DNA from: Chitinophaga agri
GTDB lineage: Bacteria; Bacteroidota; Bacteroidia; Chitinophagales; Chitinophagaceae
Assembly (NCBI RefSeq): GCF_010093065.1
Contig: NZ_CP048113.1
Coordinates: 6,280,001-6,344,000 of the forward strand
Reading direction: 5' to 3'
DNA: 64,000 nt
Position numbers and translations under genes: made by a program. Of the stretch, positions 1,022 to 20,176 are shown in pieces. Within the stretch, counting starts at the first letter, position 1; each line of letters opens with the position of its first letter. The notes beneath the pieces are model-generated. The model saw nothing but the letters and a program-made list of their open reading frames with translations, ran no database searches and was not told the DNA's origin.

Positions 1022-1057
1022 CGATCGCTGACATCAAAAATCTGTATTACTTTTGGC

Positions 1058-1148: not shown

Positions 1149-1156
1149 ATCACATA

Positions 1157-1678
1157 ATGAATATTTTAGCTCTCTTTAAGCCTATTTCCACTTTTGTATT
1201 TGATGTTGATGGTGTACTGACAGACGGAACCGTACAGTTATTGCCTAACGGGGAACAGTCGCGCAGGATGCATATCCGGGATGGATATGCCTTACAGCTG
1301 GCTGTGAAGAAAGGATACCGTGTGGTGATCATCTCCGGTGGAAGATCAGAGAGTGTGGTGAGTCGTTTACAGGGGCTGGGTATAAAGGACATATATATGG
1401 GTGTACTGGACAAGCAGGAGAAGCTGCAGGACTATGCATTTGAAAATGACCTGAAATGGGAGGAGATCCTGTTTATGGGTGACGATATTCCTGACTACCG
1501 GCCCATGCAGCTGGTGGGATTGCCGGTATGCCCTGCAGATGCTGCACCGGAAATCAAAGGTATCTGCCGTTATGTATCTCCTGTTAACGGCGGTCACGGT
1601 TGTGTACGTGAAGTGATTGAGAAAGTACTGAAACTGAATGACCACTGGATGATGGATGAGGAAGTGGCCAGCCGTTAA
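1157..1678 (+). CDS. kdsC: KdsC-like HAD phosphatase (KDO-8-phosphate phosphatase)
   Basis: A 173-residue HAD-superfamily phosphatase of the small C0 (capless) type. Motif I is F-D-V-D-G-V-L-T-D-G with the catalytic aspartates at 16 and 18. Motif II is I-S-G-G-R, and the C-terminal acidic motif is M-G-D-D-I-P-D. The KdsC family hydrolyses 3-deoxy-D-manno-octulosonate 8-phosphate to KDO, the inner sugar of lipid A-linked core in Gram-negative bacteria. Length and motif spacing match the family. No other KDO gene is adjacent, so the substrate rests on family similarity; a related sugar-acid phosphatase role remains possible. It may be co-transcribed with the downstream prenyltransferase (55-nt gap). 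Confidence 0.85.
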   Translation: MNILALFKPISTFVFDVDGVLTDGTVQLLPNGEQSRRMHIRDGYALQLAVKKGYRVVIISGGRSESVVSRLQGLGIKDIYMGVLDKQEKLQDYAFENDLKWEEILFMGDDIPDYRPMQLVGLPVCPADAAPEIKGICRYVSPVNGGHGCVREVIEKVLKLNDHWMMDEEVASR

Positions 1679-1733
1679 CAGCTGCGGCCATACTATCTAT
1701 AACCGGAATTACATTTACCGCAATTATTGAATT

Positions 1734-2675: not shown

Positions 2676-3253
2676 TGTATACCGGAAAAAGGGTGGTGCT
2701 TGCGTCACAATCTCCCCGCAGAAAGCAGTTGCTGGAACAGGCAGGTATTCCCTTTGATGTGAAGGTGGTGGATACTGCCGAGACGTTTCCTGCCGACATG
2801 GCTATTCCTGAAGTACCTGTGCATATTGCCCGCCAGAAATCAGTAGCAGTGGCGGCCCTGTGTACAGACGACGATATTGTGATCACGGCGGATACGGTCG
2901 TGGTACTGGATGATACGATCATAGGCAAGCCTAAAGACAGGGATGACGCCATTCGTATACTTTCTGCGCTCAGTGGACGTATCCATCGTGTTATTACGGG
3001 TGTGGTGATCAGACAGAACGGTCAGGAATCTTCTTTTTCCAAAGAAACAGAGGTTCATTTCAAACCACTGACCCATGAGCAGATCACTTATTATGTGGAT
3101 GCTTATAAACCCTACGATAAAGCAGGTGCATATGCTATTCAGGAATGGATCGGTGCAGTCGGTATTGATCGTATAAATGGTTGTTTCTACAATGTGATGG
3201 GACTGCCGGTAAGTAATGTAGTGGAAGCGCTGGACGCTATCGCCAAAAAATAG
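2675..3253 (+). CDS. maf: Maf-family nucleoside triphosphate pyrophosphatase
   Basis: A 192-residue Maf/YhdE-type protein. The family hydrolyses dTTP, UTP or modified nucleotides to the monophosphate and is thought to clean non-canonical nucleotides from the pool. The N-terminal S-x-R motif is in L-A-S-Q-S-P-R-R-K. The conserved acidic segment is I-T-A-D-T-V-V, followed by G-K-P-K-D-R-D-D-A and by Y-K-P-Y-D-K-A-G-A-Y-A-I-Q-E-W, the last typical of the dTTP/UTP-specific branch. The start codon overlaps the stop of the prenyltransferase gene by one base. A strong hairpin terminator follows the stop. Confidence 0.93.
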   Translation: MYTGKRVVLASQSPRRKQLLEQAGIPFDVKVVDTAETFPADMAIPEVPVHIARQKSVAVAALCTDDDIVITADTVVVLDDTIIGKPKDRDDAIRILSALSGRIHRVITGVVIRQNGQESSFSKETEVHFKPLTHEQITYYVDAYKPYDKAGAYAIQEWIGAVGIDRINGCFYNVMGLPVSNVVEALDAIAKK

Positions 3254-3256
3254 TAC

Positions 3257-3292
3257 AGCAGTAAGATGGCTGCAGTCATCTTACTGCTTCTT
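3257..3292 (+). terminator. Intrinsic terminator after maf
   Basis: A perfect 12-bp stem, AGCAGTAAGATG (3257-3268) with CATCTTACTGCT (3277-3288), and an 8-nt loop, followed by TCTTTTTATTTT. It ends the plus-strand run. The stem also overlaps the stop codon of the converging minus-strand gene (3281), so it may serve both directions. Confidence 0.85.
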
Positions 3293-3646
3293 TTTATTTT
3301 CCCGACTTTGTTTAACCCTGTATTTCACGATCCGCGTAATCAGGTCCAGCGGCATTGGCTGGTCCAGCGGAAACTGCACAGACCCTTTTCCCTGCTTATA
3401 GACCGATAATTCCTGCTCAAATTCTTCTATGCCCGTTGGTGTAGGATAGAAGCCAATATGGTTTTTAAAGGCTGCAAAATGCACCAGGTTGCCATTCAGT
3501 ACAAATGTAGGGATGGCATATTTGATATCTTCCGTTGCGTCGGGTGCCGCCTGGTGAATAGTCGCGCGGATTTGCCGGAGGATAGCCTGCACATCTTCGG
3601 GGAAGTCAGCAATGTAGGCATCAATATCAGGCGCTGTAGTTTTCAT
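3281..3646 (-). CDS. DUF1801 / YdhG-like protein
   Basis: A small (121-residue) cytosolic protein of the DUF1801 family (YdhG/YdeI-like), whose fold resembles frataxin-like iron chaperones although the function is unproven. Visible family features are the N-terminal I-D-A-Y-I-A-D-F-P segment, K-Y-A-I-P-T-F near the middle, and I-G-F-Y-P-T-P. An upstream in-frame start at 3676 would add ten residues, but a -7 promoter box at 3665-3672 lies inside that extension, so transcription would begin downstream of it. I therefore choose the ATG at 3646. The gene stands alone between convergent maf and co-directional tolC. Confidence 0.85.
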   Translation of the reverse strand: MKTTAPDIDAYIADFPEDVQAILRQIRATIHQAAPDATEDIKYAIPTFVLNGNLVHFAAFKNHIGFYPTPTGIEEFEQELSVYKQGKGSVQFPLDQPMPLDLITRIVKYRVKQSRENKKKQ

Positions 3647-3664
3647 GATAGTGGAGTTTGTATA

Positions 3665-3672
3665 CAAATATA
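3665..3672 (-). promoter_or_regulatory. -7 promoter box of the DUF1801 gene
   Basis: Read on the minus strand this is TATATTTG, an exact match to the Bacteroidota -7 consensus TAnnTTTG, 18 nt upstream of the chosen ATG. I see no convincing -33 TTG at the usual distance. Confidence 0.5.
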
Positions 3673-3697
3673 ACAAGCCACTGCTACCTGATAAAAA

Positions 3698-5167
3698 CTA
3701 CCTTCCACTGATGTTTTTATGGGTACTGAAATCATAGAGGGTTATTTTCCGCAACGTGAAATAAAGCAGCCAGTAGGTATGCAGGTTAGTGAGATAGTCG
3801 ACAGCTGCCCTGTCTTTATCCTGCTGCGCATTGTTGAAGTCCGTATAGCTAAGTCCGCCGGCGGCATATTTTTCTTTGGCAATATTATAACGTTGCTGTG
3901 CCAGCTCACTGGCTTCTTTTGATATATTCATCTGTTCTTCCTGCATATTCCATTGCATCACTTTATAGTTAATATCCTGTTCGAAGGCGAGCTGCTCCTG
4001 TGTGATGTTATTTAATTCCAGTTCAAGATTGGCTTCAGCCCTCTTCCGGCTCGACCGGTTCACACCCCAGTCTAATAAAGGGATGTTAAATCCGATGCTG
4101 ACAGCCTGGTTACGGAGGAGGTCATTATAAGCCCTGCCCAGCGAGTTGCCTGTTTGCGTAAGTCCTACATTCGCGCTCATGTTAATAGAGGGGCCCGTCT
4201 CTGATCTGACACGGGCAATAGCCTGCTCTGCTTCCAGTTTTCTTCTCTTATGGGAAATGGCGTATTGTCTGTTTTGAGAGGCTTTGGAGATAGCTGTTTG
4301 AGGGTCTATTTCGAAGAAGGTAAGTGTGTCGGGTAATAGCAGTTCTGGCGTTGTATTTCGGCTTAAGTTGAGGTATAGTGTGAATTGCTGTTCGGCGTCT
4401 TTTAATGCAAGCCGTGAATTAGCCAGCGCTTTACGTGCATTCAGTAAACTCACTTTCGCCTGTAGTACGTCATTCAGTTCTACTGTGCCTATATCGAACC
4501 TTGCCTGCGTGATCTTAATGAGTGTATCTATATTCTGGAAGTTTTGTTTATCCAGCTTGACCTGTAACATCGCATTGAGCAGATTGAAATATTTATCGAC
4601 CGTGTTACACGCGATGTTTTCCATGTTTTCAAGGTATTCTCTTTCTGATTCCTGATAACGCAGTGGTTCTATTTTATTGAACCATTTGTATTCGTTGTAG
4701 AAGACATTACGCTGGTAATAACTAAAGGTGAGCGGTACAGCAGTATAGGCCGTATTACTGAATGAACCGAAGTTGTCCAGCCGTTGCAGAGAGGAAGATA
4801 CAGAAATAGCGCCACCGGTAAGACCTATCTGCTGTGTAAGGTTCAGGTGCGCGTTAGAGCTGGCGACATTCTGTGAGACAAAATCATATTTACCATCTGG
4901 CAGGGTGATCATGTTGATCACACGATAGTAATCTGGCAGGCTACCCTGGAGAGATAATTTTGGCAGGAAGCCGGCTTTATAAGCACGGTAGTTCCAGTAA
5001 GCTGAATTAATGATATTGTCCGCCTTCTTTTTATCCAGCGAGCTACCAGCGCTGAGAGAAATGGCATTGTGCAGCGAAAGTCTTATCGTTTCCTGACTGC
5101 TGGCGGATGAGCAGCAAAGTAGTATGAGCACAAACGGCAGCAGTACATATCTTGAAATGAGATGCAT
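3698..5167 (-). CDS. TolC-family outer-membrane efflux protein
   Basis: A 489-residue TolC-like protein with an N-terminal signal peptide (hydrophobic core L-L-P-F-V-L-I-L-L-C, cleavage near S-S-A-S-S-Q). Two long coiled-coil stretches with repeated A-x-x-x-L heptads correspond to the periplasmic tunnel helices. Sequences such as S-I-G-F-N-I-P-L-L-D-W-G are typical of the second beta-barrel strand set. The family forms trimeric outer-membrane channels for RND, ABC or MFS exporters. It lies 30 nt behind a LytTR regulator and is divergent from the peptide/RND operon at 5980-17338, which has an adaptor and permeases but no outer-membrane channel of its own. I infer it is that system's exit duct. 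Confidence 0.9.
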   Translation of the reverse strand: MHLISRYVLLPFVLILLCCSSASSQETIRLSLHNAISLSAGSSLDKKKADNIINSAYWNYRAYKAGFLPKLSLQGSLPDYYRVINMITLPDGKYDFVSQNVASSNAHLNLTQQIGLTGGAISVSSSLQRLDNFGSFSNTAYTAVPLTFSYYQRNVFYNEYKWFNKIEPLRYQESEREYLENMENIACNTVDKYFNLLNAMLQVKLDKQNFQNIDTLIKITQARFDIGTVELNDVLQAKVSLLNARKALANSRLALKDAEQQFTLYLNLSRNTTPELLLPDTLTFFEIDPQTAISKASQNRQYAISHKRRKLEAEQAIARVRSETGPSINMSANVGLTQTGNSLGRAYNDLLRNQAVSIGFNIPLLDWGVNRSSRKRAEANLELELNNITQEQLAFEQDINYKVMQWNMQEEQMNISKEASELAQQRYNIAKEKYAAGGLSYTDFNNAQQDKDRAAVDYLTNLHTYWLLYFTLRKITLYDFSTHKNISGR

Positions 5168-5197
5168 AGGTAAGTGGAATGAAAGGTAAATCTGTTT

Positions 5198-5563
5198 TCA
5201 GATCTCTGTTGTATCGTGTAATGGCGTTGGTAATGTCAGGTCCTGCCGGATCAGTTCCACCAGCTTTTTGACAGACACTGTAAAAGGCAGCTGGTGTTTA
5301 TCGGTGATGCTGATCTCCTTTTTCTTTTTGTCTATACTGTTGATGAAATTTCTGTTGACGAGAAATGACTGACTTACTCTTATAAATATGGGGTGCTGCA
5401 CTTCCTTTTCCAGTTTGGATAATGATTTTGAGATAACATAATTACGGCCATCTGTGAGGTATACATGGGTATAATAGTTATCCGATTTGAAAAACAGCAC
5501 GGCGGCATAGGCCACTACATAGATCTTATCCTGATAAGGGATCAATATTCTCTCGATGGACAT
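5198..5563 (-). CDS. Stand-alone LytTR DNA-binding regulator
   Basis: A 121-residue protein made almost entirely of one LytTR DNA-binding domain. Typical signatures are F-F-K-S-D-N-Y-Y-T-H-V-Y near residue 25, then S-K-S-L-S-K-L-E, F-I-R-V-S-Q-S-F-L-V-N, and I-N-S-I-D-K-K. LytTR proteins usually carry an N-terminal receiver or membrane domain; none is present here, so the input signal must come from another protein, from abundance, or from a ligand to this domain. It leads the lytTR-tolC transcript and sits divergent, 416 bp away, from the secreted-peptide/RND operon. It is the only candidate regulator in the locus. Confidence 0.88.
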   Translation of the reverse strand: MSIERILIPYQDKIYVVAYAAVLFFKSDNYYTHVYLTDGRNYVISKSLSKLEKEVQHPIFIRVSQSFLVNRNFINSIDKKKKEISITDKHQLPFTVSVKKLVELIRQDLTLPTPLHDTTEI

Positions 5564-5979
5564 TATGGGTTACAGTGTTAATAGTAAAACAGATTTGTTT
5601 GTGTGCTTAATGAGATTGGTTGAAATTGCCGTTACGAGCATGTGTGTCTGGTGTACCGAAACTAAAAATTTTAATCAGAGAAAAAAAATGGAAATAAACG
5701 CTAAGATTTGGCGGTCGGGTTGCTTTAGGGTTGGAAAATAACAAATTGCGGCGGGATAACGATAAGATCTGTACAGGTTTATACTTTATACAGTGTGCAG
5801 ACTTTTTTATGAGTACCCGTCTTTTCCTGCATTTAAGTAAAAACAGGAGATCCTGTGAGAATGAGAGTGGATTCCGGAGATAATGACCTGTATTCTTAAT
5901 TGTGTTTGAATGGACTGAAATGTTTGAGTTTATCAGTTAGTTTTGAGAACATACAACCATTGTAACCTTATACCGCTTT
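5564..5979. other. Divergent intergenic region, lytTR / peptide-export operon
   Basis: A 416-bp region between divergent start codons. No plausible gene was seen in either strand. It should hold both promoters and the operator of the LytTR protein. A -7-like box lies at 5938-5945 towards the plus operon. For the minus strand I did not identify a clean TAnnTTTG box. The size is generous for a simple promoter pair and suggests additional regulatory sites. Confidence 0.5.
5938..5945 (+). promoter_or_regulatory. -7 promoter box of the peptide/RND operon
   Basis: TAGTTTTG matches the Bacteroidota consensus TAnnTTTG, 34 nt upstream of the ATG at 5980. A TTTG occurs 11 nt further upstream, which is closer than the usual 19-22 nt spacing, so the -33 element is unconvincing. 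Weak or activator-dependent initiation would fit a regulated operon. Confidence 0.4.
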
Positions 5980-7053
5980 ATGAGTACCAAGACACGTTTA
6001 ACCTGTCCATTATTGTTCGTCATTGTAATGCTGTTTTTTTGTTCCTGTAGTTCAGGCGTGAAATACAGGCGGGGTAGTCTTTCCGAGATCCTTGAACAGG
6101 CAAAAGAGGAGAATAAGAAGGTGTTTGTCCTGGTAGCTGATTCTACCTGTCCGCGATGCAAGGCATTTGCTGAATACCTTGATACGCTACCCGGTGTAGC
6201 AGATGCCATCAACAAAGACTTTATTCCATATAAAGTTTATCTGAGTGACCCTGAACAAAATGTACTTGCACAGATCTTAAAAGTAAATGCCCTGCCATTT
6301 CCCTACTTTCTTGATAGTGATGGAAAGATACTTGCATTCGGATTTCCGAATTCAAAATATTTTAATGTAGGTGATATGGACAGCATTTATATAGACCCGT
6401 ATAAATTTCAGGAGAGCTTTCAATTGGGGATCTCAATTGAGAAATATAAGGAAATGGTATACTATGCATTGCAGGCCTATCTGGAGGCTGAAAAGATCCC
6501 TCAGCAGAAAGGTACATTGCAGCATGCCATGGAGCTGACAAGGAAGTCGCTTGAGAAAGGTGAGTACCTGTATAATTTTTATCAGATGTATAGTTTCAGC
6601 AGGAGGATGGGGCTTAATGAGCAGGCAACAGCTTACCAGGTGAAAATCGCACATAATTACACAGGCAGGGACCGCTTTCTATATGGCCCGTTAATGAGAA
6701 AGATTGGATTGCCGGATGACGCTTATGCGACCTCTCCAAAAGTAAATTCAGATGAACTGTTTTTTGAAAATGAAGAACTGACGGCCGATAGCGTGTCTGC
6801 AGGTAAAGACCTGTATTTTACATTCCGCTTCAAAAATGTCAGCACACATCCTGTAATTATACAACGAGCAGAACATCATTGTGATTGCATACAACTTACA
6901 TGGCCTGAAATGCCTATTGCCCCATCCGACACCGGTAGTATAACAGGTGTATTTCATACATCTGAAGCAGGCAGTTACGATAAAGACATATTTGTTCATA
7001 TGAACACCAATGCTTCCTATAAAACGATCCATCTCAAAGGCGTCGTGCTTTAA
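5980..7053 (+). CDS. Lipoprotein with thioredoxin-like (CPRC) and DUF1573 domains
   Basis: A 357-residue protein with a lipoprotein-type leader (hydrophobic core, then F-C-S-C with the acceptor probably Cys23). Residues about 33-140 form a thioredoxin-like domain with the redox pair C57-P-R-C60 and a cis-Pro segment A-L-P-F-P-Y. The middle is helical. Residues about 270-355 match DUF1573, an Ig-like periplasmic domain, including the C-D-C-I motif typical of that family and two V/I-rich strands near the end. It is the first gene of the operon that encodes two Cys-rich secreted proteins (48 nt downstream), so I infer a role as periplasmic thiol oxidase, reductase or isomerase for them. The family assignment is good; the redox direction is unknown. 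Confidence 0.82.
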   Translation: MSTKTRLTCPLLFVIVMLFFCSCSSGVKYRRGSLSEILEQAKEENKKVFVLVADSTCPRCKAFAEYLDTLPGVADAINKDFIPYKVYLSDPEQNVLAQILKVNALPFPYFLDSDGKILAFGFPNSKYFNVGDMDSIYIDPYKFQESFQLGISIEKYKEMVYYALQAYLEAEKIPQQKGTLQHAMELTRKSLEKGEYLYNFYQMYSFSRRMGLNEQATAYQVKIAHNYTGRDRFLYGPLMRKIGLPDDAYATSPKVNSDELFFENEELTADSVSAGKDLYFTFRFKNVSTHPVIIQRAEHHCDCIQLTWPEMPIAPSDTGSITGVFHTSEAGSYDKDIFVHMNTNASYKTIHLKGVVL

Positions 7054-7100
7054 TCAAATCAACCAGTATCTTTTTTTGTTAACATTAAAACCAAGTCTAC

Positions 7101-7493
7101 ATGAAAAAGTTGCTTAAACGCATCGTAATTGTTTGCAGCATGCTTGCTGTTGTTTTAGGAAGTATGAGAAGTTCTATTGCTTCAAGCCCCCTTTATGGAC
7201 AATGTGGTGGTGAAGGCTGGACTGGCTCTACCACCTGCGCTGACGGCGGATACTGTGAAATGGTGAATCAATATTACTCACAATGCCTTCCTGGAGGCGG
7301 TTGCCCAGGCAGGTGCTCCGGCGGTGGTTGTGGTGCATCGTCATGTACTATCACAGCTGCTACAATTCCAGGTACCGGTGGCGGTGGTGCATCAAAATCA
7401 GTAACAGCCAGCGCCGGCTATTTTGCTTGTTGCTATAGCGATGTAGTAACAATTTATGCCAGGACATACCCCAACAGCTGTTGCCCTTTGTAA
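7101..7493 (+). CDS. Small secreted Cys-rich protein with CBM1-like module (copy 1)
   Basis: A 130-residue protein. Residues 1-27 are a Sec signal peptide (K-K-L-L-K-R, then a hydrophobic core, cleavage after S-I-A). Residues 32-62 match the fungal cellulose-binding module family CBM1: Y32-[13 protein letters not shown]46, C52, and N56-Q-Y-Y-S-Q-C62. The four cysteines have CBM1 spacing, and the flat-face aromatics (Y32, Y58, Y59) plus N56 and Q61 are present. A Gly-rich linker leads to a second domain with C68, C72, C77, C82, a GGGG stretch, then a C110-C111 pair and a C127-C128 pair near the C-terminus. The mature part has 12 cysteines. CBM1 is almost confined to fungi and similar eukaryotes. 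I do not know the function of the C-terminal part. Confidence 0.82.
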
Positions 7494-7580
7494 GAGATGC
7501 TGCACTAGCATTGATCCCGCATAAACCGATCTATATGCGATGTATGTTTCCATTTATTTTTTACCTCAAGATTAAATAGC

Positions 7581-7988
7581 ATGAAAAAGTTAGTTCGACG
7601 TTTGGCAGTCATTTGCAGCATGACTGCTATTGTTTTAGGAAGTATGACAAGTTCCATTGCACAGAGCCCTCTTTGGGGACAATGTGGTGGTGAAGGCTGG
7701 ACTGGTACTACCTTTTGTGTATCTGGTGCCACATGTAATTTCGTAAATCAGTTCTACTCGCAATGTGTCCCTGGCGACGGCGGCGGCGACGGTAGTGGTT
7801 GTCCAAGCAGATGTTCCGGCGGCGGTTGCGGTTCAACATCATGTACGATTACGGCTCCCACAATTCCCGGAGTTGGTGGCGGTGGCGCATCCAAATCTGT
7901 AACTGCTGGTAGTGGTTACTTCGCTTGCTGTTATAGCACTGGAGTTACATTATATGCAAAGGCTTATCCAAACAGCTGCTGTAACTAA
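7581..7988 (+). CDS. Small secreted Cys-rich protein with CBM1-like module (copy 2)
   Basis: A 135-residue paralogue of the preceding gene. Signal peptide 1-27 (cleavage A27/Q28), CBM1-like module 32-62 (W32-G-Q-C-G-G; C46; C52; N56-Q-F-Y-S-Q-C62), a longer Gly/Asp linker (65-73) and the same C-terminal domain with G-Y-F-A-C-C-Y and a final S-C-C-N. All 12 mature cysteines are conserved with copy 1. The gene lies exactly 480 bp after copy 1 and shares long identical DNA runs in the signal and CBM1 parts, so it is a tandem duplication. The binding-face aromatics vary conservatively (Y to W, Y to F). It may bind cellulose, chitin or another glycan, or use the fold for something else. Confidence 0.82.
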
Positions 7989-8063
7989 TTAAGCATAATC
8001 ACCGGATGCATACAGGGATGAAGTAATAGGACCGGTATTCCTGGTGATGAGCTGATCATTAAC

Positions 8064-8093
8064 TGACATTGTATGCACCTGCATACAATGTCA
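8064..8093 (+). terminator. Hairpin / probable attenuator after the peptide genes
   Basis: A perfect 13-bp inverted repeat, TGACATTGTATGC (8064-8076) with GCATACAATGTCA (8081-8093) around the loop ACCT. Only a weak T-rich run (ATCCTTTA) follows, so it is not a full intrinsic terminator. Its position between the small secreted proteins and the exporter genes suits partial termination or 3'-end protection, giving more peptide message than exporter message. Confidence 0.55.
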
Positions 8094-8123
8094 TCCTTTA
8101 CTCAAATATACCTATCATAGAAA

Positions 8124-9377
8124 ATGCGTAATGTTTTTATTCTGTTAGCCCTTTCGCTCACTGCCTGCAAGAGTAAGACTTCTACTGATGAGAATAATGG
8201 GCCTGTCCGTTACAATGCTACTACAGCTAATGAAAACCTGACAAAGATCAGCGTACCCGTAAGTTCAGGTCAGTTAAAGTTATCGGCTGTTACTGATGGT
8301 TACCAGGTCGTACGACCTGACAGTAAAAGTGACCATATGTTTGGAGAGATCAAGCAACTGAATATCACTGCTGATAAGTACATCATCTACGATGATATCT
8401 CATCTGCGGTTATGATCTTTGATAAGGACGGGAAGTTCATCAATAAGATAAAAGCAGGCGCTATTGACTCAGCCAATCTGCAATCTATAGATGCTATAGA
8501 TACCTATAAAGATAAGATCTATGTTAAGAGTGCGACCAGTAATAACTTGTCTGTATTTAACACAGACGGGCAACTATTGAAGCAAAATAAACTGCGCTTC
8601 TTCTATAGCAATTTTATGGTACTGAATGATAGAGAGGACATCCTGATGAATACAGATAAGATGATTAACTACATGTATGCCGGTGATACAATGGTGGCTG
8701 ACTGTGCGAATATGTATGTTTTTACTCCACCAGCGCAACAGTCAATCGCTTCTCAGTCCGGCCTGCTCAATACACCAAAATTACAACGTTATTTCCCTTT
8801 CAGTGTAAAGAAGTTTCCTAACGGCTCTTTGCATTTTTATGTGAATAATCCATTCAGCCGTGTTGGAGATGAAGTATATTATAATCTCGTATTCAGTGAT
8901 ACGATCTACACCATCACTGCTCCTGAAGTAGTAAAGCCTAAGTACGTTATTGACTTTGGTGACCATAAGAGTACATTCGATTTGCTGGAAAGGACCGGGG
9001 AAGAGATTTCTACCTATTTAAAGAAGCTGCCTGAAGAAGCATGCATGGTATCTAACTTTTTCGAGACACCTTCTTTTATTCACTTCGGTTATGCGTACCA
9101 TGGACAGTATAATACCGCTATCTATTCCAAGAAAAGCGGGAAGATTATCACCGGGCATTTAGAGAACGATCTCTTTGCACAGGAGCTGATGTTTATTGCT
9201 GCCGATGGGGATGAATTTATTGCTACCGTAAAGCCTTATAAAATGAAAGAGCTTGTGGCAAAATCATCCGCAACTACTACAGATCCCAATGCATTGCAGC
9301 AATTGGTGAAAATGACGACGGGGATGAGCGATAACGACAATGAGATGATCGTACGTTGTAAATTCAAAGCGTTCTAG
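8124..9377 (+). CDS. 6-bladed beta-propeller lipoprotein
   Basis: A 417-residue protein with a lipoprotein signal (L-S-L-T-A-C15). The body consists of repeated blade-like units such as Y-I-I-Y-D-D-I-S-S-A-V-M-I-F-D-K-D-G-K and K-I-Y-V-K-S-A-T followed by L-S-V-F-N-T-D-G-Q, as in the Bacteroidota 6-bladed beta-propeller family. Members are periplasmic or surface lipoproteins, commonly encoded beside small secreted peptides, thioredoxin-like proteins and exporters; their biochemical role is not established. Here it sits between the CBM1 proteins and the thioredoxin-like protein, only 2 nt ahead of the latter, so it is very probably part of the same system, perhaps as a chaperone or docking protein. 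Confidence 0.82.
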   Translation: MRNVFILLALSLTACKSKTSTDENNGPVRYNATTANENLTKISVPVSSGQLKLSAVTDGYQVVRPDSKSDHMFGEIKQLNITADKYIIYDDISSAVMIFDKDGKFINKIKAGAIDSANLQSIDAIDTYKDKIYVKSATSNNLSVFNTDGQLLKQNKLRFFYSNFMVLNDREDILMNTDKMINYMYAGDTMVADCANMYVFTPPAQQSIASQSGLLNTPKLQRYFPFSVKKFPNGSLHFYVNNPFSRVGDEVYYNLVFSDTIYTITAPEVVKPKYVIDFGDHKSTFDLLERTGEEISTYLKKLPEEACMVSNFFETPSFIHFGYAYHGQYNTAIYSKKSGKIITGHLENDLFAQELMFIAADGDEFIATVKPYKMKELVAKSSATTTDPNALQQLVKMTTGMSDNDNEMIVRCKFKAF

Positions 9378-9379
9378 TC

Positions 9380-10018
9380 ATGAAAATGAAAATCTTTTCG
9401 GGACTGCTTATACTGGCGTTCGCAGGAAATATTATACTGTTCTTTAAGAATAAAAGCAACGCACATAATGTGCCGGGGAATGTGGCCGTCAATAAGGAGC
9501 TGGCACAGCTTCAGATGAGTGAAACAAATAACAGAGTATTACAGCAAACGATGCAGCAATTTATGATAGAGCAGTTCACCAATGACGGAGTGCAACTGCC
9601 TGATCATATAACATTGACCGGTGGAGAGCAAATAGCTGCAAATAAGTTATTGCCCGCCTGTCATCGGGTGCTGGTCTTCCTGTTTGACAGGAATGCCTGT
9701 TCTGCCTGTGTGGAGCATGAACTAACAAATATTGCGGCCTTAAAAGAAGAATTGCACACAGATGAAGTGGTGATCCTGTCATCCTCCTTTCCTACACTCA
9801 CACAGGCACAGTTATATATAGAGCGGTTTAAGGTGCCGTATAAAGTATATAATATTGCGGATACGCTTGGATTCACCACGGAACACCTGCAACAGCCCTG
9901 TTATTTTGTACTGGACGATGCAAAAAAGACATCCCTCTTTTTTATGCCTGACAAGAATAATCCTTCTTTGTCCGATAGTTACCTGCAAATAGTACGTAAA
10001 CGTTTCTTTCATCATTAA
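9380..10018 (+). CDS. Membrane-anchored thioredoxin-like protein (CSAC)
   Basis: A 212-residue protein with one N-terminal membrane anchor (F-S-G-L-L-I-L-A-F-A-G-N-I-I-L-F-F) and a periplasmic thioredoxin-like domain. The redox motif C-S-A-C follows strand V-L-V-F-L-F-D-R-N-A, and L-Q-Q-P-C-Y-F-V-L-D looks like the cis-Pro loop. A helical stretch separates anchor and domain. It is the second thioredoxin-fold protein in the operon, 2 nt after the beta-propeller gene and 15 nt before the adaptor gene. Together with the CPRC lipoprotein it suggests an oxidising/reducing or isomerising pair for the 12-Cys secreted proteins. Whether it draws electrons from a DsbD-like partner is not visible here. 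Confidence 0.8.
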   Translation: MKMKIFSGLLILAFAGNIILFFKNKSNAHNVPGNVAVNKELAQLQMSETNNRVLQQTMQQFMIEQFTNDGVQLPDHITLTGGEQIAANKLLPACHRVLVFLFDRNACSACVEHELTNIAALKEELHTDEVVILSSSFPTLTQAQLYIERFKVPYKVYNIADTLGFTTEHLQQPCYFVLDDAKKTSLFFMPDKNNPSLSDSYLQIVRKRFFHH

Positions 10019-10033
10019 CCTTGTGACTGTAGT

Positions 10034-11113
10034 ATGATATTTTGCTGGAGATTGGTTGGGGTAGCCGGACTGTGTGCTTTTGCAGCATGCCAGTCTGCGC
10101 CTGCACGTACAGATAATATGGGCCAGGTTTTCGCCGGAAAGGAAGATAGTTTCTTTACTACCCGCGTACAGGTGCGTACCGTAGAGATGAGTGATTTTGA
10201 GCAGCAGATCTTCACAAATGGTAAGCTTGAAAGCCTGGAAACGCAGGTTATTAAATTTCCTTTTAATGAAAAGATCAGCCGTATCAATGTAAAGAACGGA
10301 CAGTATGTGCATAAATCACAGGTAATGGCCGAACTGGACAAAACAGCGGCTTTGCGTAAGCTGGTACGTACGAAAGATGCCTGGGAGCGGGCCATGATTG
10401 CGCTGGATGATAAGCTGATCGATTACGGTTACCGGTTGGCGGATACTGCCCGTGTACCACCAGGCATTCTTAAAATGGCGAAGATCAAAAGCAGCTATAC
10501 AACCTCCTGGCTGGATCTGGAAGAAGTGCGTTATGAAGTAGCGCAGGCTGACATCACAGCGCCGGTGGATGGTGTTGTATCTGGCCTGGAAGCAAAGACC
10601 GGTAGTTATGCAGAGACGTATAATATGCAATTCTGTACACTCATCTCTAACAGTAAGATGCTAGTCTCTTTTACCTTACTGGAATCAGATATTGTTTATC
10701 TCAAAGAAGGAATGGCAGTAACCGTTAACAGTTATGGAGGAAAGAATAAGATATTAAAGGGACACTTGCATGCTATCAATCCGGTGGTCGATAAAGACGG
10801 TATGATTAAGGTACAGGCGATAGTATCAGTACCAGCAGATAACGGTTACCTCAGTGGTATGAATGTGAAGGTCTGTATCCTGAATACTATTCCTACAAAG
10901 ATCAGTATACCCAAAGAAGCCATTGTACAGAAGCAGAATGGGAAAGTAGTATATACTTTTGAAAATGGAGTGGCTAAGCTTAACTATGTGGAGACCGGGC
11001 CGGATAATGAGAAATATATTGTGATCAATACCGGCCTGAAAACAGGGCAACAGATCATTGTCTCTAATCCGGAATTGCTGACCAACGGCGCGGCGGTTAT
11101 CGTTGACAAATAA
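10034..11113 (+). CDS. HlyD/RND-type periplasmic adaptor lipoprotein
   Basis: A 359-residue membrane-fusion protein with a lipobox (A-F-A-A-C19). It shows the split lipoyl-like domain: first half K-I-S-R-I-N-V-K-N-G-Q-Y-V-H-K, second half A-D-I-T-A-P-V-D-G-V-V-S-G. A short helical hairpin of roughly 60 residues lies between them, much shorter than in drug-efflux adaptors. The beta-barrel and membrane-proximal domains follow (K-I-S-I-P-K-E-A-I-V). It should bridge the two RND permeases encoded next and a TolC channel. The downstream permease begins 4 nt after its stop if the first ATG is used. Confidence 0.88.
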   Translation: MIFCWRLVGVAGLCAFAACQSAPARTDNMGQVFAGKEDSFFTTRVQVRTVEMSDFEQQIFTNGKLESLETQVIKFPFNEKISRINVKNGQYVHKSQVMAELDKTAALRKLVRTKDAWERAMIALDDKLIDYGYRLADTARVPPGILKMAKIKSSYTTSWLDLEEVRYEVAQADITAPVDGVVSGLEAKTGSYAETYNMQFCTLISNSKMLVSFTLLESDIVYLKEGMAVTVNSYGGKNKILKGHLHAINPVVDKDGMIKVQAIVSVPADNGYLSGMNVKVCILNTIPTKISIPKEAIVQKQNGKVVYTFENGVAKLNYVETGPDNEKYIVINTGLKTGQQIIVSNPELLTNGAAVIVDK

Positions 11114-11117
11114 CAAC

Positions 11118-14100
11118 ATGCAGCCTATGAAAGTATCCGATTTCTCAGTGATCGTGTTTTTCTTTGCATTAGCAGTGACTGGTTATTTTCTGTTGCCGCA
11201 GTTGCCTGTTAAACTGACACCGGAAAGGACCTCTCATGATATTAGTATTCATTGCAGTTATCCGGGTATGGCTGCCGCTAAAGTAGAACAGGATGTATCG
11301 CTGAAACTGGAAGGAGTCATTGCTACATTACCAGAGGTAAAAAACATCCGGACTGTGTCTGAGCCGGGGCAGTGCAATATTTCAGTTACCCTGGATGAGA
11401 ATGTGAATATCAGAGAAGCCAAATTAGAGATATCTACGCTTATAAGGCAACTGCATAAACTGCTGCCCGAAGGTGCATCTTATCCAATCATTACCGCCGG
11501 TGGTAGCAATACAGATGGAAGTAGTGTGATTTTATCCTATACATTTAGCGGTCCGGGTACAGCCAGAGAGCTGGCTACTTATTTTGATAAGCGCATATTG
11601 CCTGCGATTAATAGCATTCCCGGTATTAGTAAAGTAGTCATTAGTGGAAGACCGGAGAGGAAGCTGGTTATTCGTTATAGCAGTGAAAAGATTAGCAATC
11701 ATGGAATGACCAGTGAAACGATCAGTAGGGAGATCAGTAAATATATAGAACGGCAACAACTGGGCAGGGTAACTGAAACCGATGATAACGGCAAGGATCG
11801 GCGTGTTTACTTATCCGTGAGTAATTTGGTGGACGGTAATACTATCAGGTGGCAGCAGATTCCTGTCGCTGTGCTGAATGGGCATACCGTCTTGTTAGGA
11901 GAGGTTGCAACCGTTGCAATGGAAGATGAGGAAGGACCGGGCACATTAAGAATAAATGCACACCAGGCTATTACGTTCGGCCTTATTAGTGCAGGTTATG
12001 CCAATTCGCTGCATGCGGAAGCCGCTTCAGCACAGATCACTGCTATACTTCGAAAGCGACTTCCCGTCGGATATGATCTGATGTTACAGGAGAATAGTGT
12101 ATCGGTAGTGCGCAATACATTGAAAGAAATGATATGGCGTATATCGGGGATCATGTTGGCAGCCATACTATCAGGTATGCTGCTATTTAAAGGATATAGA
12201 TATGTATTTGTCCTGCTTTTATCACAGCTATGTATTGTTGGTATATGGAGCGTAATCGCTTATGCACTACATTACACCCTCACGGTACCTTTGATGGTAG
12301 GACTGTGCATAGCACTGATCTTTAGTATATATGGAGTCGTCATAAGGATGGTGAACAGCTCATTGGTTCGTTCGGGGGTGTTGTATACACTTGCGGGCAT
12401 ACATCTGATAGTCATCAGTACGTTATTAAGTTTGTTTGTTACCGATGCATTTGTCAGGGCAGATATCTGGGATATTGCGGGTCCCCTGATTACTTATACG
12501 TTGGTATCCTTACTGTCAGTATGGTTATTTGTACCAGCACTATGTAATAAGCTTCAGATAACTGTCAGGCGGTGGCGGCGCAGGAGCTATACAGCACCAA
12601 TACTGAGAGTCCCCTGTTATTTATACCTTTTCTATTCATCCCTATATCGTTGTAAATGGTTGTTAATACCGGGGGGTGTCCTGTTTTTCGGACTCCCCCT
12701 ATTTTTATTGCCTCAATACATGCAGCCTGGTCAGCCTGGTGCCGGATTGTATAATAAAACCATCGGTACATCAATTTATCGGTATACTATCAGACCTGTT
12801 ACAGATAAATGGCTCGGAGGTACATTGTCGCAATTTGTGAACCAGCAGATGTCGCCTTTCGCATATCAGCGGAAAGATCAGCGGACCCAATTAGAGATCA
12901 GTATCTCTGTTCCTGTGGGTATATCAGACAACCGGCTTGTTGCTGTGTCAGGTGCTTTTGAAAGCTATCTCAGGGATATGCCACAGTTAGAACAGTTCAG
13001 CACCAGAATGAAAGGTGATGGGAGTGCGCAGATGCGCATTGTTTTTAAGGATGCATATGCACAAGGCGGTTTTCCCATTTATCTGAAAAGTCGTCTTGAA
13101 GAGAAGGCTGCACAAACAGGACTGGCTAGTTTCATTATTACAGGACTGGGCGCTGGATTCAGTAATGTGAAAAGAAATGAGCTGGGTAATTATATGATCG
13201 AGGTGGCTGGATATAATTACAGGCAACTGTACGCTATTGCCGCAGATATCAGAAGAAAGTTATTAGAACAGCCACGCGTGAAAAGTGCTGTAGTAAGGAA
13301 TACTCATAGTAACACGGAGCGTTTGGGAGAAGGCATTTCCTATGAGTTCAGTTTCGGAATGATGGGAAATACTATACTTCGTGATGCTGATATGCAGGCT
13401 ATTGCAAGACAGAACGGCCATAATAGTAATACAGCACGTACCCTTGTTAGTATTCCTATGGAAGGGCAGCTGGTGCCTGTTGTATTACAGTCGGATAGTA
13501 GCACAACAATAGATCTGTGGAGCCTGCTGCATAGTCCCATCTCCAAAGATTCTGCTGCCTGGCTCAGACTATCGGAACAGGGGGGAATCGATACCATCTC
13601 AAAATCCTCAGCGATCGTACGTCAGAACCAACAGTATAACCAGGTGGTCCATTACACCTTACTGGGTGATGAACATTTTGGAGAATACTTCCGTGATAAT
13701 ATGATAGCAGATATCAGCGGACATCTTCCTATTGGCTATAAGATAGCTGCCAGTACGTCTATGGAAGCTTTACAGGCAGCACGTCAGTTGTGCGCCGCAT
13801 TGTTACTGGCAATGGTAGCTGTCTTTATTACAGGTAGTGTTGTGTTGAATGATCTGCGGCAGCCATTGTATATCACGTTGATAGTACTTTTCTCTTTTAC
13901 GGGAGTATTTATTACAGCCGTATTTTTAGAAGTTACGTTCAATGAATGCGCGATCGCGTTCTTTTTATGTAGCGGCTTTGTGGCCGGGGGGCCATTGCTG
14001 ATCACAATATTATATAGCGGCTTATTGAAAAGCCATGGTAACAGATGGGCTGTATTATTGTTGTTCATCACATTGCGAAGGACGGCCTTACCGGTTATAC

Positions 14101-14297
14101 TGTCAGCTATTTTCTGTGCAGGCGGCTTTTTGAGTTTCTGGTATTATACCAGTGATACGACCAACTATCTAAAGATGGTATGTGTAGCAGGCAGCATACT
14201 GATCGCCCTGCCTGCTTACTTTCTGTTCCTGCCTGTATGCCTGGCAGGTAAGCGCATACATCAGCAATACAATCACCTGCAGCGATATAAAAAATAA
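11118..14297 (+). CDS. Divergent RND permease subunit lacking proton-relay residues
   Basis: A roughly 1059-residue RND-superfamily permease with the usual layout: TM1, a large periplasmic loop (K-L-T-P-E-R-T and G-M-A-A-A-K-V-E-Q-D-V near the start), TM2-6, second loop, TM8-12. I choose the ATG at 11118; an in-frame TTG at 11103 would overlap the adaptor. TM4, where active pumps carry an Asp pair, reads G-L-C-I-A-L-I-F-S-I-Y-G-V-V-I-R with no acid. TM10, where AcrB has G-L-S-A-K-N, reads G-F-V-A-G-G-P-L-L-I with no Lys or Asn. This subunit is therefore unlikely to translocate protons alone and probably pairs with the next gene, 5 nt downstream, in a hetero-oligomer. Confidence 0.85.
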   Translation: MQPMKVSDFSVIVFFFALAVTGYFLLPQLPVKLTPERTSHDISIHCSYPGMAAAKVEQDVSLKLEGVIATLPEVKNIRTVSEPGQCNISVTLDENVNIREAKLEISTLIRQLHKLLPEGASYPIITAGGSNTDGSSVILSYTFSGPGTARELATYFDKRILPAINSIPGISKVVISGRPERKLVIRYSSEKISNHGMTSETISREISKYIERQQLGRVTETDDNGKDRRVYLSVSNLVDGNTIRWQQIPVAVLNGHTVLLGEVATVAMEDEEGPGTLRINAHQAITFGLISAGYANSLHAEAASAQITAILRKRLPVGYDLMLQENSVSVVRNTLKEMIWRISGIMLAAILSGMLLFKGYRYVFVLLLSQLCIVGIWSVIAYALHYTLTVPLMVGLCIALIFSIYGVVIRMVNSSLVRSGVLYTLAGIHLIVISTLLSLFVTDAFVRADIWDIAGPLITYTLVSLLSVWLFVPALCNKLQITVRRWRRRSYTAPILRVPCYLYLFYSSLYRCKWLLIPGGVLFFGLPLFLLPQYMQPGQPGAGLYNKTIGTSIYRYTIRPVTDKWLGGTLSQFVNQQMSPFAYQRKDQRTQLEISISVPVGISDNRLVAVSGAFESYLRDMPQLEQFSTRMKGDGSAQMRIVFKDAYAQGGFPIYLKSRLEEKAAQTGLASFIITGLGAGFSNVKRNELGNYMIEVAGYNYRQLYAIAADIRRKLLEQPRVKSAVVRNTHSNTERLGEGISYEFSFGMMGNTILRDADMQAIARQNGHNSNTARTLVSIPMEGQLVPVVLQSDSSTTIDLWSLLHSPISKDSAAWLRLSEQGGIDTISKSSAIVRQNQQYNQVVHYTLLGDEHFGEYFRDNMIADISGHLPIGYKIAASTSMEALQAARQLCAALLLAMVAVFITGSVVLNDLRQPLYITLIVLFSFTGVFITAVFLEVTFNECAIAFFLCSGFVAGGPLLITILYSGLLKSHGNRWAVLLLFITLRRTALPVILSAIFCAGGFLSFWYYTSDTTNYLKMVCVAGSILIALPAYFLFLPVCLAGKRIHQQYNHLQRYKK

Positions 14298-14302
14298 GTG
14301 TT

Positions 14303-17300
14303 ATGAAGGCCTTGCTCGGCAAACCAGTGTCTGTATTATCAGTATTTATATCGTTATTGTTATTAGGGTTGGTAGCTTCCCGGCATATACCCATATTGCC
14401 ATTACCTGATGTAGAAATACCTGAAATCTCGGTTTATCTGCATAATAAACAGTTTTCAGCAGTAGAGTTGGAAGAGACGATGACCGGATTGTTGCGTGGT
14501 ACACTGGGCCAGATGGCCGATGTCAATGAGGTTGAAAGTGAGACAAAGGACGGTGCCGCAGTGATCCATATCAAGTTCAGACATGGCACCGGTATGCATC
14601 ATGCCTTTATTGATGTCAATGAAAAGATCGATCTTTTTATGTCCAGGTTTCCTGCCAATACTGAACGTCCCCGCGTGGTGAGGGCTAGTCTGACGGATAT
14701 TCCGGTATTGTTTATCAATATGCAGCTTAAAGGCCAGGGGAATGAGCAGCAGGACGTCGGAGGCCTGGTACGCCTTGGAGAGCTGGCAACAGAGACTATT
14801 AAAAAAAGATTGGAACAACTACATGAAGTGGCACTGGTAGACGTGACAGGTGTGGAATATCCCGAAGTAAGGATCATACCAGATACGGCTACTATGATGG
14901 CGATCGGTATCCGACCGGAACAGTTCGTTGCAGTGCTGGAGCAACAACATATATCAATGGGTAGTGCATTGGTAAAAGACGGTATCTTTCAATACGTACT
15001 CTCATTTTCTTCAGCCGGATTGAATACAGTTGAAGATATACGAAATATAAAGTTCAGCTGGAGAGACAGGATCTATAAAATGGATGATGTAGCAGAGGTC
15101 AGCATTCGTCAGAAAGAGCGGGAGGGAGGTTATTTCATAGGAAATGCCGCAGGCATTAATCTGGCCGTTTTTCAGCATGATAAGGCCCGTATCGGCGATC
15201 TGAAAGCGGTTGTGAATACAGCTATTGAGCAGTTCAGCAAAGACTATCCACAGGTAGCTTTTACTGTTACAAGAGACCAGACTGCCTTGCTGGATGCTTC
15301 CATAAATAACCTGATGCAGGATCTTGTATTTGGTGGGATACTTGCTTATTTTATTCTCTTCTTCTTCATAAGAAACTGGCGTATCCCTATATTGATAGGT
15401 GTTACAATCCCTTCAGCGCTGATTATAAGTCTGCTGTTATTTTATATAATCGGCTTGTCTATCAACATCATTTCTCTTTCAGGATTGGTACTTGGATTAG
15501 GGCTGATGATAGACAATGCGATTATTGTCATTGACAATATTGTACAAAAATGCATGGACGGTATGCCGTTTGGAAAAGCATGTTTGTATGGCACTGCAGG
15601 TATGATCAGGCCTATGATCTCATCAGCGTTTGCAACAGTGTCAGTATTCATTCCACTGATCTTTATGGGAGGAATATCGGGTGCATTGTTTTATGATGAG
15701 GCCATTGCTATCACATTAGGTATTGCCGCTTCTTTGCTGATAGCAGTGATACTTTTACCAACATTGTTCATCATGTTTGAACGCAGTATATTAAAAGGTG
15801 GACTGATGGAGCAGCGGGTGAGAGAAGATGGTCCATTGACGAAAATATACGAAGCAGGTATCCATTGGGTATTTAAACATAAGCTGATAACAATGTTGCT
15901 GGTGCTGGTCGTATTGGGCACTGGATATGGATTGTTGTCGATATTGAGACAGGAACAGTTGCCACAGATCGAGCAGTCAGATCTGATAGTCAACATTGAC
16001 TGGAATGAGAATATTACATTCGATGAAAATGTGAGCAGGGTACAGGCATTGATTGGAGGGTATCTGAAGACTACAACGCGTATAGAAAGTTATATCGGTG
16101 AGCAACAGTTTATTCTGTCCAGGGAAAAAGAGCAGTCACCGGCTGCATGCGGCATCTATCTGATAGGTATGCGTGGGGCTGGACTGGAAAAAGTAAAGGC
16201 GGATATTGCACGGCAACTACAGTACAGATATCCACATGCTATTTTTAGTGTAAGAGCCCCGGCTTCCATTTTCGAACAGATCTTTGATGAATCGGCTTAT
16301 CCACTGGTGGCGCATTTAGCTGCTGCAGAAAATGGCGTCTTTCCTGATCCTGCAATGGCGGGTCAGATATTGCAGGACTGGCGTCGCCGTTTGGGAGATC
16401 AGCAGGTCATGCCCGTACCTGTGACGCTGAACAAAGAGCTGATACTTGATACGGAGAAATTGTTACTGTATCATGTAACAGCGGAGAGCATTTACAGGCA
16501 GTTAAAATTTATGATAGCAGATAACAGCGTCTTTGATATCAAAAACGGCAACCAGTTCCTGCCTGTTACGATGGGAGGGAATAGCGGAACACTGGATGAT
16601 ATATTGCGCAATGCGACAGTAATGAATGAACAAGGCTTACGATTGCCCGTACGGGAGATGGTTACTATCCGGAACAGGGTGAATTTTAAGATGATAGATG
16701 GCGGCAGGGAGGGGAAGTATATCAAGGTTCCGTTGAGTACCAGTGACCCCGAGAGGACGATGGCATTGCTGGCAGATAGTGTGAAAGATAGTGGTATGCA
16801 GGTGACGTTTGCAGGTGCTTATTTCGAAAGGCAGGAACTGATAAGGAATATAGGAGTCGTACTATTACTTTCTGTATTACTGCTGTACTTCATCCTGGCT
16901 GCACAGTTTGAATCCATGTTACAGCCATTGATTGTACTGGCAGAGTTGCCCATCAGTATTGCAGGCGCATTCATTATGCTCTACGTGTTTAAGTCTTCTG
17001 TAAATGTGATGTCACTGATCGGCATTATTGTGATCTGTGGTATTATACTCAATGACTCCATACTTAAAATAGATACCATCAATACGTTGATCAGGAAGCA
17101 GGGCATGTCAGTGATCGATGCCATCCATTTGGGCGGTAAAATGAGGCTGCATGCTATTTTAATGACCAGCATGACCACTACTTTATCAGTTGTACCTTTT
17201 CTCTTTGGGAATGATCTGGGGAATACATTACAACGGCCGCTGTCATTGACAGTAATAGGAGGGATGCTGTTCGGCACCTTCGTAAGTCTGTTCTTTATTC

Positions 17301-17338
17301 CACTGATCTATTGGTGGTGTTACCGTACGAAGGCATAA
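14303..17338 (+). CDS. RND permease subunit (putatively energised partner)
   Basis: A 1011-residue RND permease with two large periplasmic loops and about 12 membrane segments. TM4 reads G-L-M-I-D404-N-A-I-I-V-I-D-N, keeping one of the two canonical relay aspartates. TM10 reads I-L-N-D918-S-I-L-K922-I-D924, so charged residues are present but arranged differently from AcrB-type G-L-S-A-K-N. The family exports small molecules, metals or lipids; here the neighbours (secreted Cys-rich proteins, thioredoxins, propeller lipoprotein) suggest a peptide or envelope-related substrate. The gene closes the plus-strand operon that begins at 5980. Confidence 0.9.
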   Translation: MKALLGKPVSVLSVFISLLLLGLVASRHIPILPLPDVEIPEISVYLHNKQFSAVELEETMTGLLRGTLGQMADVNEVESETKDGAAVIHIKFRHGTGMHHAFIDVNEKIDLFMSRFPANTERPRVVRASLTDIPVLFINMQLKGQGNEQQDVGGLVRLGELATETIKKRLEQLHEVALVDVTGVEYPEVRIIPDTATMMAIGIRPEQFVAVLEQQHISMGSALVKDGIFQYVLSFSSAGLNTVEDIRNIKFSWRDRIYKMDDVAEVSIRQKEREGGYFIGNAAGINLAVFQHDKARIGDLKAVVNTAIEQFSKDYPQVAFTVTRDQTALLDASINNLMQDLVFGGILAYFILFFFIRNWRIPILIGVTIPSALIISLLLFYIIGLSINIISLSGLVLGLGLMIDNAIIVIDNIVQKCMDGMPFGKACLYGTAGMIRPMISSAFATVSVFIPLIFMGGISGALFYDEAIAITLGIAASLLIAVILLPTLFIMFERSILKGGLMEQRVREDGPLTKIYEAGIHWVFKHKLITMLLVLVVLGTGYGLLSILRQEQLPQIEQSDLIVNIDWNENITFDENVSRVQALIGGYLKTTTRIESYIGEQQFILSREKEQSPAACGIYLIGMRGAGLEKVKADIARQLQYRYPHAIFSVRAPASIFEQIFDESAYPLVAHLAAAENGVFPDPAMAGQILQDWRRRLGDQQVMPVPVTLNKELILDTEKLLLYHVTAESIYRQLKFMIADNSVFDIKNGNQFLPVTMGGNSGTLDDILRNATVMNEQGLRLPVREMVTIRNRVNFKMIDGGREGKYIKVPLSTSDPERTMALLADSVKDSGMQVTFAGAYFERQELIRNIGVVLLLSVLLLYFILAAQFESMLQPLIVLAELPISIAGAFIMLYVFKSSVNVMSLIGIIVICGIILNDSILKIDTINTLIRKQGMSVIDAIHLGGKMRLHAILMTSMTTTLSVVPFLFGNDLGNTLQRPLSLTVIGGMLFGTFVSLFFIPLIYWWCYRTKA

Positions 17339-20003: not shown

Positions 20004-20040
20004 CAAGTATTTTATTACAGTGAATTTCAATCTCTGCCAA

Positions 20041-20156: not shown

Positions 20157-20176
20157 TCATGTGTAAGAACTGGTTG

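Follow-up and report, generated by a model that had tools for sequence, protein, structure and literature searches.

What do two small secreted proteins with a CBM1 cellulose-binding domain, to our knowledge otherwise almost confined to fungi, do next to a tripartite RND-type pump in Chitinophaga agri, a member of the Bacteroidota? The genes in question occupy positions 3698 to 17,338 of the window, i.e. the whole 64,000-nucleotide stretch analysed here (contig NZ_CP048113.1, positions 6,280,001 to 6,344,000), which is part of a genome of 7.97 Mb in one contig. The locus is a real, conserved and unusual system. With moderate confidence, we read it as a dedicated system that folds, and most likely exports, the two carbohydrate-binding mini-proteins. 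It has the following layout (E-values after the family accessions).

3698 to 5167, minus strand: TolC-family outer-membrane channel, 489 residues, the likely exit duct (PF02321, 1.9e-33)
5198 to 5563, minus strand: single-domain LytTR regulator, 121 residues, divergent from the operon (PF04397, 3.4e-16)
5564 to 5979, no strand: divergent intergenic region, presumed from the gene layout to be the promoter region
5980 to 7053, plus strand: thioredoxin (CPRC)-DUF1573 lipoprotein (Trx-DUF1573), presumably a folding factor dedicated to the CBM domain (PF13098; PF07610, 1.2e-20)
7101 to 7493, plus strand: cargo a, 130 residues, with signal peptide, CBM1 (residues 31-59) and C-terminal 8-Cys domain (PF00734, 4.4e-11)
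7581 to 7988, plus strand: cargo b, 135 residues, with signal peptide, CBM1 (residues 31-59) and C-terminal 8-Cys domain (PF00734, 1.1e-12)
8124 to 9377, plus strand: 6-bladed beta-propeller lipoprotein, DUF5128 (PF17170, 4e-25; lipobox in the translation)
9380 to 10,018, plus strand: membrane-anchored CSAC protein with a thioredoxin fold, 212 residues (AlphaFold2 model and Foldseek)
10,034 to 11,113, plus strand: RND-type periplasmic adaptor of the HlyD family, a lipoprotein by its leader (TIGR01730, 155.5 bits, above cut-off; PF13437, HlyD_3)
11,103 to 14,297, plus strand: RND1, a divergent permease in which the proton-relay Asp of transmembrane segment 4 (TM4) is replaced by Tyr (PF00873, ACR_tran, 3.9e-50)
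14,303 to 17,338, plus strand: RND2, a permease retaining the TM4 Asp (PF00873, ACR_tran, 1.2e-133)

All ten genes stand at the positions claimed for them in the initial annotation, and Pfam and NCBIfam confirmed the family of each except the CSAC protein. Coordinates and family matches thus bear out the proposed arrangement, with the LytTR and TolC genes diverging from an operon for Trx-DUF1573, the mini-proteins, propeller, CSAC protein, HlyD adaptor and two RND permeases. The CPRC and CSAC motifs can both be read straight from the translations. Intergenic gaps from Trx-DUF1573 to RND2 are, in order, 47, 87, 135, 2, 15, -11 and 5 bases; the tight spacing proposed for 8124 to 17,338 is found from 8124 onward, and upstream of 8124 the genes are spaced more loosely. 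For RND1, both TTG at 11,103 and ATG at 11,118 are possible starts. A promoter scan stayed at the level of shuffled sequence (39 found versus 36.0 expected), and no site is claimed.

The two mini-proteins match PF00734 (CBM_1) with 42.9 and 48.0 bits. Since these scores are more than twice the Pfam cut-off of 20.6, the CBM1 of both is genuine as judged from sequence. As initially described, they are secreted 12-Cys CBM1 proteins, each having 12 cysteines after residue 18, and their signal peptides, which lack a lipobox, support delivery by Sec. Cargo a and cargo b are 73% identical, and three further CBM1 mini-proteins in the protein collection are 68-70% identical. In an alignment of seven sequences including both window proteins, all 12 cysteines are invariant, among them the four of the CBM1 (C35, C46, C52 and C62). 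The three aromatic places of the domain hold Trp/Tyr, Phe/Tyr and Tyr. Among solved structures, a profile of the seven sequences best matches the CBM1 of fungal cellobiohydrolases (5x39, 1cbh and others, with E-values as low as 1.8e-11). The likeness to fungal CBM1 lies in the PF00734 match above cut-off, the four conserved cysteines and the three aromatic places, whereas here the domain is bacterial, N-terminal and mounted on a mini-protein without an enzyme. No other Pfam or NCBIfam domain was matched in either mini-protein, so no carbohydrate-active enzyme is appended. The same libraries gave no match to a type 9 sorting domain, although a diverged one could escape them. The ligand of the N-terminal CBM1 is presumably cellulose or chitin.

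No further CBM1 was found in the host genome at E<=0.1, and the domain is present in 4 of 79 Chitinophaga genomes. Two of 195 genomes drawn from the family were reported to hold it; one of these (G080) has its PF00734 match in a 19-residue open frame and was excluded from the counts. Scanning named genomes for conserved patterns of the CBM1 alignment revealed no relative, and no plasmid matched the mini-proteins. The initial annotation proposed co-occurrence outside this genome as its own check, and the full gene order was found in two other Chitinophaga genomes. In G262, it occupies the same chromosomal place (same left-hand neighbours, a homoserine dehydrogenase-type gene on the right) and includes one extra redoxin gene. 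In G225, it lies on a 33-kb contig near a relaxase and a YWFCY gene, and this copy may be mobile; the relaxase and YWFCY genes (L047, G225:C5, 409-2652) suggest a conjugative element. TolC counterparts share 78% identity in locus L046 and 56% in L047. A further genome, G234, has LytTR, Trx-DUF1573 and a 65-residue CBM1 protein that lacks the C-terminal domain, with no adaptor or permease match in 19.5 kb around it. The LytTR gene was found at the four CBM1 loci of the genus (the window, L046, L047 and L058) and at none of the 30 other loci searched. The base composition shows no clear trace of recent acquisition, with a GC content of 0.395-0.452 across the locus in 1.5-kb steps versus 0.425-0.481 for the remainder of the first 30 kb.

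Next to these close copies, the pump itself is more widespread. When the 79 genus genomes were searched with RND1, 12 further ones had a permease of this type scoring above 150 bits, and G224 had a weaker match. The set of pump loci was composed of 13 of the 18 genomes with RND1 matches (those above 150 bits), G224 and three loci from a family search, which scored three candidates per genome at a cut-off of 1e-150 and gives a lower bound of at least 4 of 244 genomes. Seven RND places served as controls, namely low-scoring ones in G238, G244, G245 and G258 and second places in G225, G224 and G000, the window's own genome. Candidate cargo was defined as an ATG frame of 50-175 residues outside larger frames, with a signal-like start and at least four cysteines after residue 18. 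Such a small secreted Cys protein was present in 17 of the 17 pump loci first examined and absent in six of the seven controls. The seventh control (L165, G000:C1:7429500-7448500, 394-11012) is on annotation a second pump locus of the same type, with RND1-like, RND2, HlyD, DUF4221 propeller and thioredoxin-like genes and a 56-residue Cys protein at 6293-6463. After its reassignment, the counts are 18 of 18 pump loci versus 0 of 6 controls. It is this constant association of pump and cargo that points to export.

A typical pump locus contains, where identified, a propeller, HlyD, RND2 and TolC, and mostly also a thioredoxin-like protein. Based on Pfam, the propeller is DUF5128 in L049, L052, L054, L107 and L108 and DUF4221 in L055, L056, L060, L109 and L165; none was identified in L057. 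L107 and L108 have a DUF1573 protein in place of the thioredoxin-like protein, none of the latter being identified there. The permease genes of L057 (G239:C1:2578500-2597500, 4088-7236 and 14087-17321) are in pieces, through decay or sequencing errors in a genome that is 80% complete; these pieces were listed apart and left unjoined. In three genomes, the cargo slot holds secreted proteins with CBM14, the peritrophin-A chitin-binding domain (two in G205, two in G267 and three in G242). Four of them, scanned with Pfam, match PF01607 at 55.5-62.4 bits versus a cut-off of 22.1 (E 6e-15 to 4e-17), and all seven places were recovered in a genome search. The other pump loci have secreted cargo without a CBM, of 57-162 residues and with at least four cysteines. 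In some of these CBM-less loci, GT-C mannosyltransferases (GT22, PMT_2) adjoin Ser/Thr-rich cargo (L048, 14026-15525; L052, 3478-4965 and 9421-10779; L054, 7588-9042), as if the cargo were O-glycosylated in the periplasm. In the RND2 tree, cargo with a CBM is spread over at least two clearly distinct groups (split support 100/100), and in the RND1 tree over three places, some branches being long.

Comparing CBM proteins with and without a pump revealed what the pump follows. The 11 CBM cargo proteins of pump loci have 127-163 residues and 10-13 cysteines, versus 65-105 residues and 4-9 cysteines in the 18 listed CBM proteins that stand beside Trx-DUF1573 without a pump. This list omits one CBM14 copy each in G204 and G242:C12, which have the CBM-only layout as well, a broken copy in G256, and the proteins of G106 and G222. 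Queried with eight adaptor and permease sequences, tblastn gave no match in any of the 16 CBM loci without a pump, each of 10.7-19.5 kb. In G205, the CBM14 cargo has a C-terminal part similar to the CBM-less cargo of G214/G261/G209, with 37.0 and 35.8 bits versus 25.4 for the best of 1000 shuffles. Two largely separable modules therefore emerge by correlation: Trx-DUF1573 goes with the CBM domain and the pump goes with the C-terminal Cys domain.

Alternatively, the C-terminal domain may be the real product, i.e. a peptide toxin, a signal or a bacteriocin-like peptide released from a precursor by cleavage. The propeller and thioredoxin proteins would modify it and the pump would export it, the CBM being an aiming or leader part added in some lineages. 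We consider this unlikely. In its favour, 12 of the 18 pump loci have CBM-less cargo, some of just 56-83 residues, the mannosyltransferases beside Ser/Thr-rich cargo look as if cargo were modified, and CBM cargo is found in two or more distant clades of RND2. However, no protein of the window operon matches a protease family (Pfam, NCBIfam), and the CBM1 set conserves both halves and all 12 cysteines jointly. Bacteroidota also encode small secreted NVEALA-type peptides beside propellers. The cargo of L048-L052 and L054 has similar leaders with DUF5128 propellers nearby. NVEALA identity was nevertheless rejected, since the Pfam NVEALA profile matched neither of the two window cargo proteins and none of 18 cargo proteins of relatives; the literature searched yielded nothing on NVEALA.

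All parts of an RND tripartite pump of the HAE-1 type were matched, i.e. ACR_tran permeases, RND adaptor and TolC. None of the ten locus proteins matches an ABC family, and since the permeases match ACR_tran, no MacB-type transporter is present. The profile of RND1 and that of RND2 both have MdtB as best solved match. In RND2, the TM4 Asp is kept in 10 of 10 aligned sequences; in RND1, it is kept in 8 of 11 and replaced by Tyr or Ser in the three CBM1 loci. Without this residue, RND1 is hardly an ordinary proton-driven permease by itself, and it is unlikely, by analogy, that RND1 of the CBM1 loci carries protons as AcrB does.

With an adaptor, two dissimilar RND permeases and TolC, the pump resembles MdtABC-TolC; MdtBC is called a rare heterotrimer in an excerpt of a review (PMC8277102). 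Unlike that system, the pump here has small secreted Cys proteins, a propeller and a thioredoxin-fold protein as its companions, and one of its permeases is without the TM4 aspartate in the CBM1 loci. According to passages of PMC5985334, MacAB-TolC is likewise tripartite and transports a protein toxin out of the cell from the periplasm. The proposed route is alike in leading protein from periplasm to outside and differs in that MacB is an ABC transporter, whereas the route here would be proton-driven.

Another possibility is that the pump handles some other small compound that is produced or sensed alongside the mini-proteins, which would themselves reach the surface by another route or remain periplasmic. 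The known RND pumps move small molecules, and the HlyD, RND and TolC proteins match ordinary family profiles. Nevertheless, this explanation appears rather improbable, as a small Cys protein is found in 18 of 18 pump loci despite differing cargo families and no biosynthetic enzyme was matched in the window operon (Pfam, NCBIfam), the glycosyltransferases among the accessory proteins scanned elsewhere occurring at some loci only. Moreover, neither the window cargo nor the cargo of relatives scanned matches a sorting domain that would provide another route.

The remaining factors are two thioredoxin-like proteins. The CSAC protein has no Pfam match; its AlphaFold model (predicted local distance difference test score, pLDDT, 74) matches Bcp1, ResA and CcmG in Foldseek (E about 3e-8 to 3e-6), supporting the thioredoxin-like nature first ascribed to it, and its two cysteines are invariant in eight aligned sequences. 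In 17 aligned Trx-DUF1573 sequences, the lipobox Cys and the CxC of DUF1573 are invariant, and the CxxC nearly so (one copy of G205 lacks it). By their leaders, the adaptor, the propeller and Trx-DUF1573 are lipoproteins, the mini-proteins having plain signal peptides. The suggestion that the two thioredoxin-like proteins act as a pair did not hold, since full-type Trx-DUF1573 tracks the CBM domain with or without a pump, whereas the CSAC protein tracks the pump.

Within the genus, full-type Trx-DUF1573 gave 21 matches at E<=1e-30 in 16 of 79 genomes, and 21 of 21 stand at CBM1 or CBM14 loci. Eighteen genomes have CBM1 or CBM14; full-type Trx-DUF1573 is present in 16 of these 18 versus 0 of the remaining 61. 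A profile search of all frames in the 18 pump loci found it in the six with a CBM and in 0 of the 12 without one. Across the family (244 genomes, E<=1e-10, eight candidates scored per genome), all matches listed except the main ones of G000 and G114 span about positions 202-357, mainly the DUF1573 half. G114, from another genus, encodes a full Trx-DUF1573 protein (249.5 bits) that adjoins the sole CBM14 match outside Chitinophaga that exceeds 30 bits and is free of stops (L164). Other CBM14 matches outside the genus were set aside as containing stops (G019, G296) or falling below cut-off (G032). Among named genomes, a conserved-pattern scan with Trx-DUF1573 returned five Chitinophaga records, and plasmids gave one match with 27% coverage, in Prevotella. 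In the phylum, CBM14 is rare, with 1 of 395 genomes drawn (G512, another family). This genome has a thioredoxin lipoprotein without DUF1573 one gene away from its CBM14 gene, matching the thioredoxin half of the profile with 41.8 bits. The CBM14 mini-protein itself stands alone, its family being distant though within the same class (L181, G512:C18:3000-20000, about 8260-9899).

Avr4-type CBM14 effectors and tachycitin are secreted proteins around one CBM14 domain, the effectors being small (PMC6128652). Tachycitin is small as well. The pump-less CBM14 proteins of Chitinophaga share this layout, but are bacterial and have a thioredoxin-DUF1573 partner, and their chitin binding is putative.

That Trx-DUF1573 instead anchors the CBM protein to the outer membrane, the two forming a complex for adhesion to cellulose, chitin or fungal hyphae that needs no export into the medium, is quite improbable. 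In favour of this reading, Trx-DUF1573 is a lipoprotein by its leader, contains an Ig-like DUF1573 domain and stands next to CBM-only proteins throughout, at 13 genus loci and in G114. However, its nearly invariant CxxC and fully invariant CxC fit redox work better, and the CBM14 protein of G512 stands near a lipoprotein resembling the thioredoxin part only.

We return to a dedicated folding and export system, for which we infer the following route, each factor being assigned to its domain from the module correlation. Gene content, conservation, the module correlation and the lost RND1 aspartate are observations; folding, transport, its direction and the ligand belong to the model. Sec would carry the mini-protein into the periplasm, as its signal peptide implies. 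There, the Trx-DUF1573 lipoprotein would form or edit the disulfides of the CBM part, a role suggested by the fact that it accompanies two unrelated CBM folds rich in disulfides. The 8-Cys domain at the C-terminus would be the handle for the second module, in which the CSAC thioredoxin-fold protein and the propeller lipoprotein might mature or receive it. The HlyD-(RND1/RND2)-TolC pump would then move the cargo from periplasm to outside, with RND2 as the proton-driven half and RND1 probably as a passive or substrate-binding half. Once released, the mini-protein might bind a fungal or plant wall polymer. The first interpretation of the locus was thus partly supported: co-occurrence, signal peptides and the thioredoxin fold of the CSAC protein speak for it, and the thioredoxin pair has to be given up.

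Several points weigh against our reading. RND pumps are textbook small-molecule exporters, and no precedent for an RND pump exporting proteins of about 105 residues was found in the literature searched. AlphaFold modelled the CBM1 cargo poorly (pLDDT 63), and we therefore propose neither a fold nor a disulfide map for it. CBM loci were the source of the Trx-DUF1573 profile, so its association needed testing outside those loci. A link between CBM presence and the pump as such is unsupported (6 of 18 versus 7 of 61 genomes, p = 0.06, with the 13 genomes above 150 bits as pump set), and the genomes are related, so that Fisher p-values overstate independence. Since this association is not significant and CBM-only proteins have no pump nearby, the pump is linked to the C-terminal domain instead. 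G106 and G222 have CBM14 proteins of a different layout, without pump or Trx-DUF1573. Finally, other DUF1573 proteins occur in 4 of the 12 CBM-less pump loci, which weakens a clean split into two modules.

L107, 10227 to 10661: DUF1573-only protein
L108, 10566 to 10946: DUF1573-only protein
L109, 9019 to 9447: DUF1573-only protein
L054, 12823 to 13980: fusion of a CSAC-like thioredoxin part and DUF1573, 386 residues

DUF1573 may thus serve the pump too, and CBM loci are set apart by one specific Trx-DUF1573 family, not by DUF1573 as such.

A more far-reaching version is put forward tentatively, at somewhat less than an even chance. In this version, a proton-driven RND pump secretes a folded, disulfide-rich cargo of two parts, its C-terminal Cys domain being the export handle for a propeller/thioredoxin/RND machine. 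Fungal CBM1 and animal-type CBM14 would have been mounted on it at least twice, each with a Trx-DUF1573 folding factor of one family, aiming the cargo at a fungal, insect or plant wall polymer. In the literature searched (mainly open-access, as titles and abstract openings), no description of a comparable system was found. If true, dedicated RND export of small folded proteins would widen the role of this family and provide Bacteroidota with a protein export route alongside types 1 and 9. The Trx-DUF1573 family, because it is found with two unrelated Cys-rich CBM folds, offers a case in which to test whether a disulfide factor can be specific for a whole class of domains and not for a single protein. 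Chitinophaga live alongside fungi and insects, and secreted CBM1 and CBM14 mini-proteins may therefore be adhesins, shields or antifungal agents.

An O-antigen-ligase-like gene lies inside the pump locus L109 (9447-11240). Tables of PMC10434189 on B. thetaiotaomicron contain BT0662 (O-antigen ligase), BT0664 (6-bladed propeller) and BT0669 (RND adaptor), and this locus is perhaps related to L109. In the window, an S-adenosylmethionine (SAM) riboswitch (RF00162, 80.4 bits) was identified on the minus strand at 20,039-20,158, directly upstream of the minus-strand frame 18,704-19,882.

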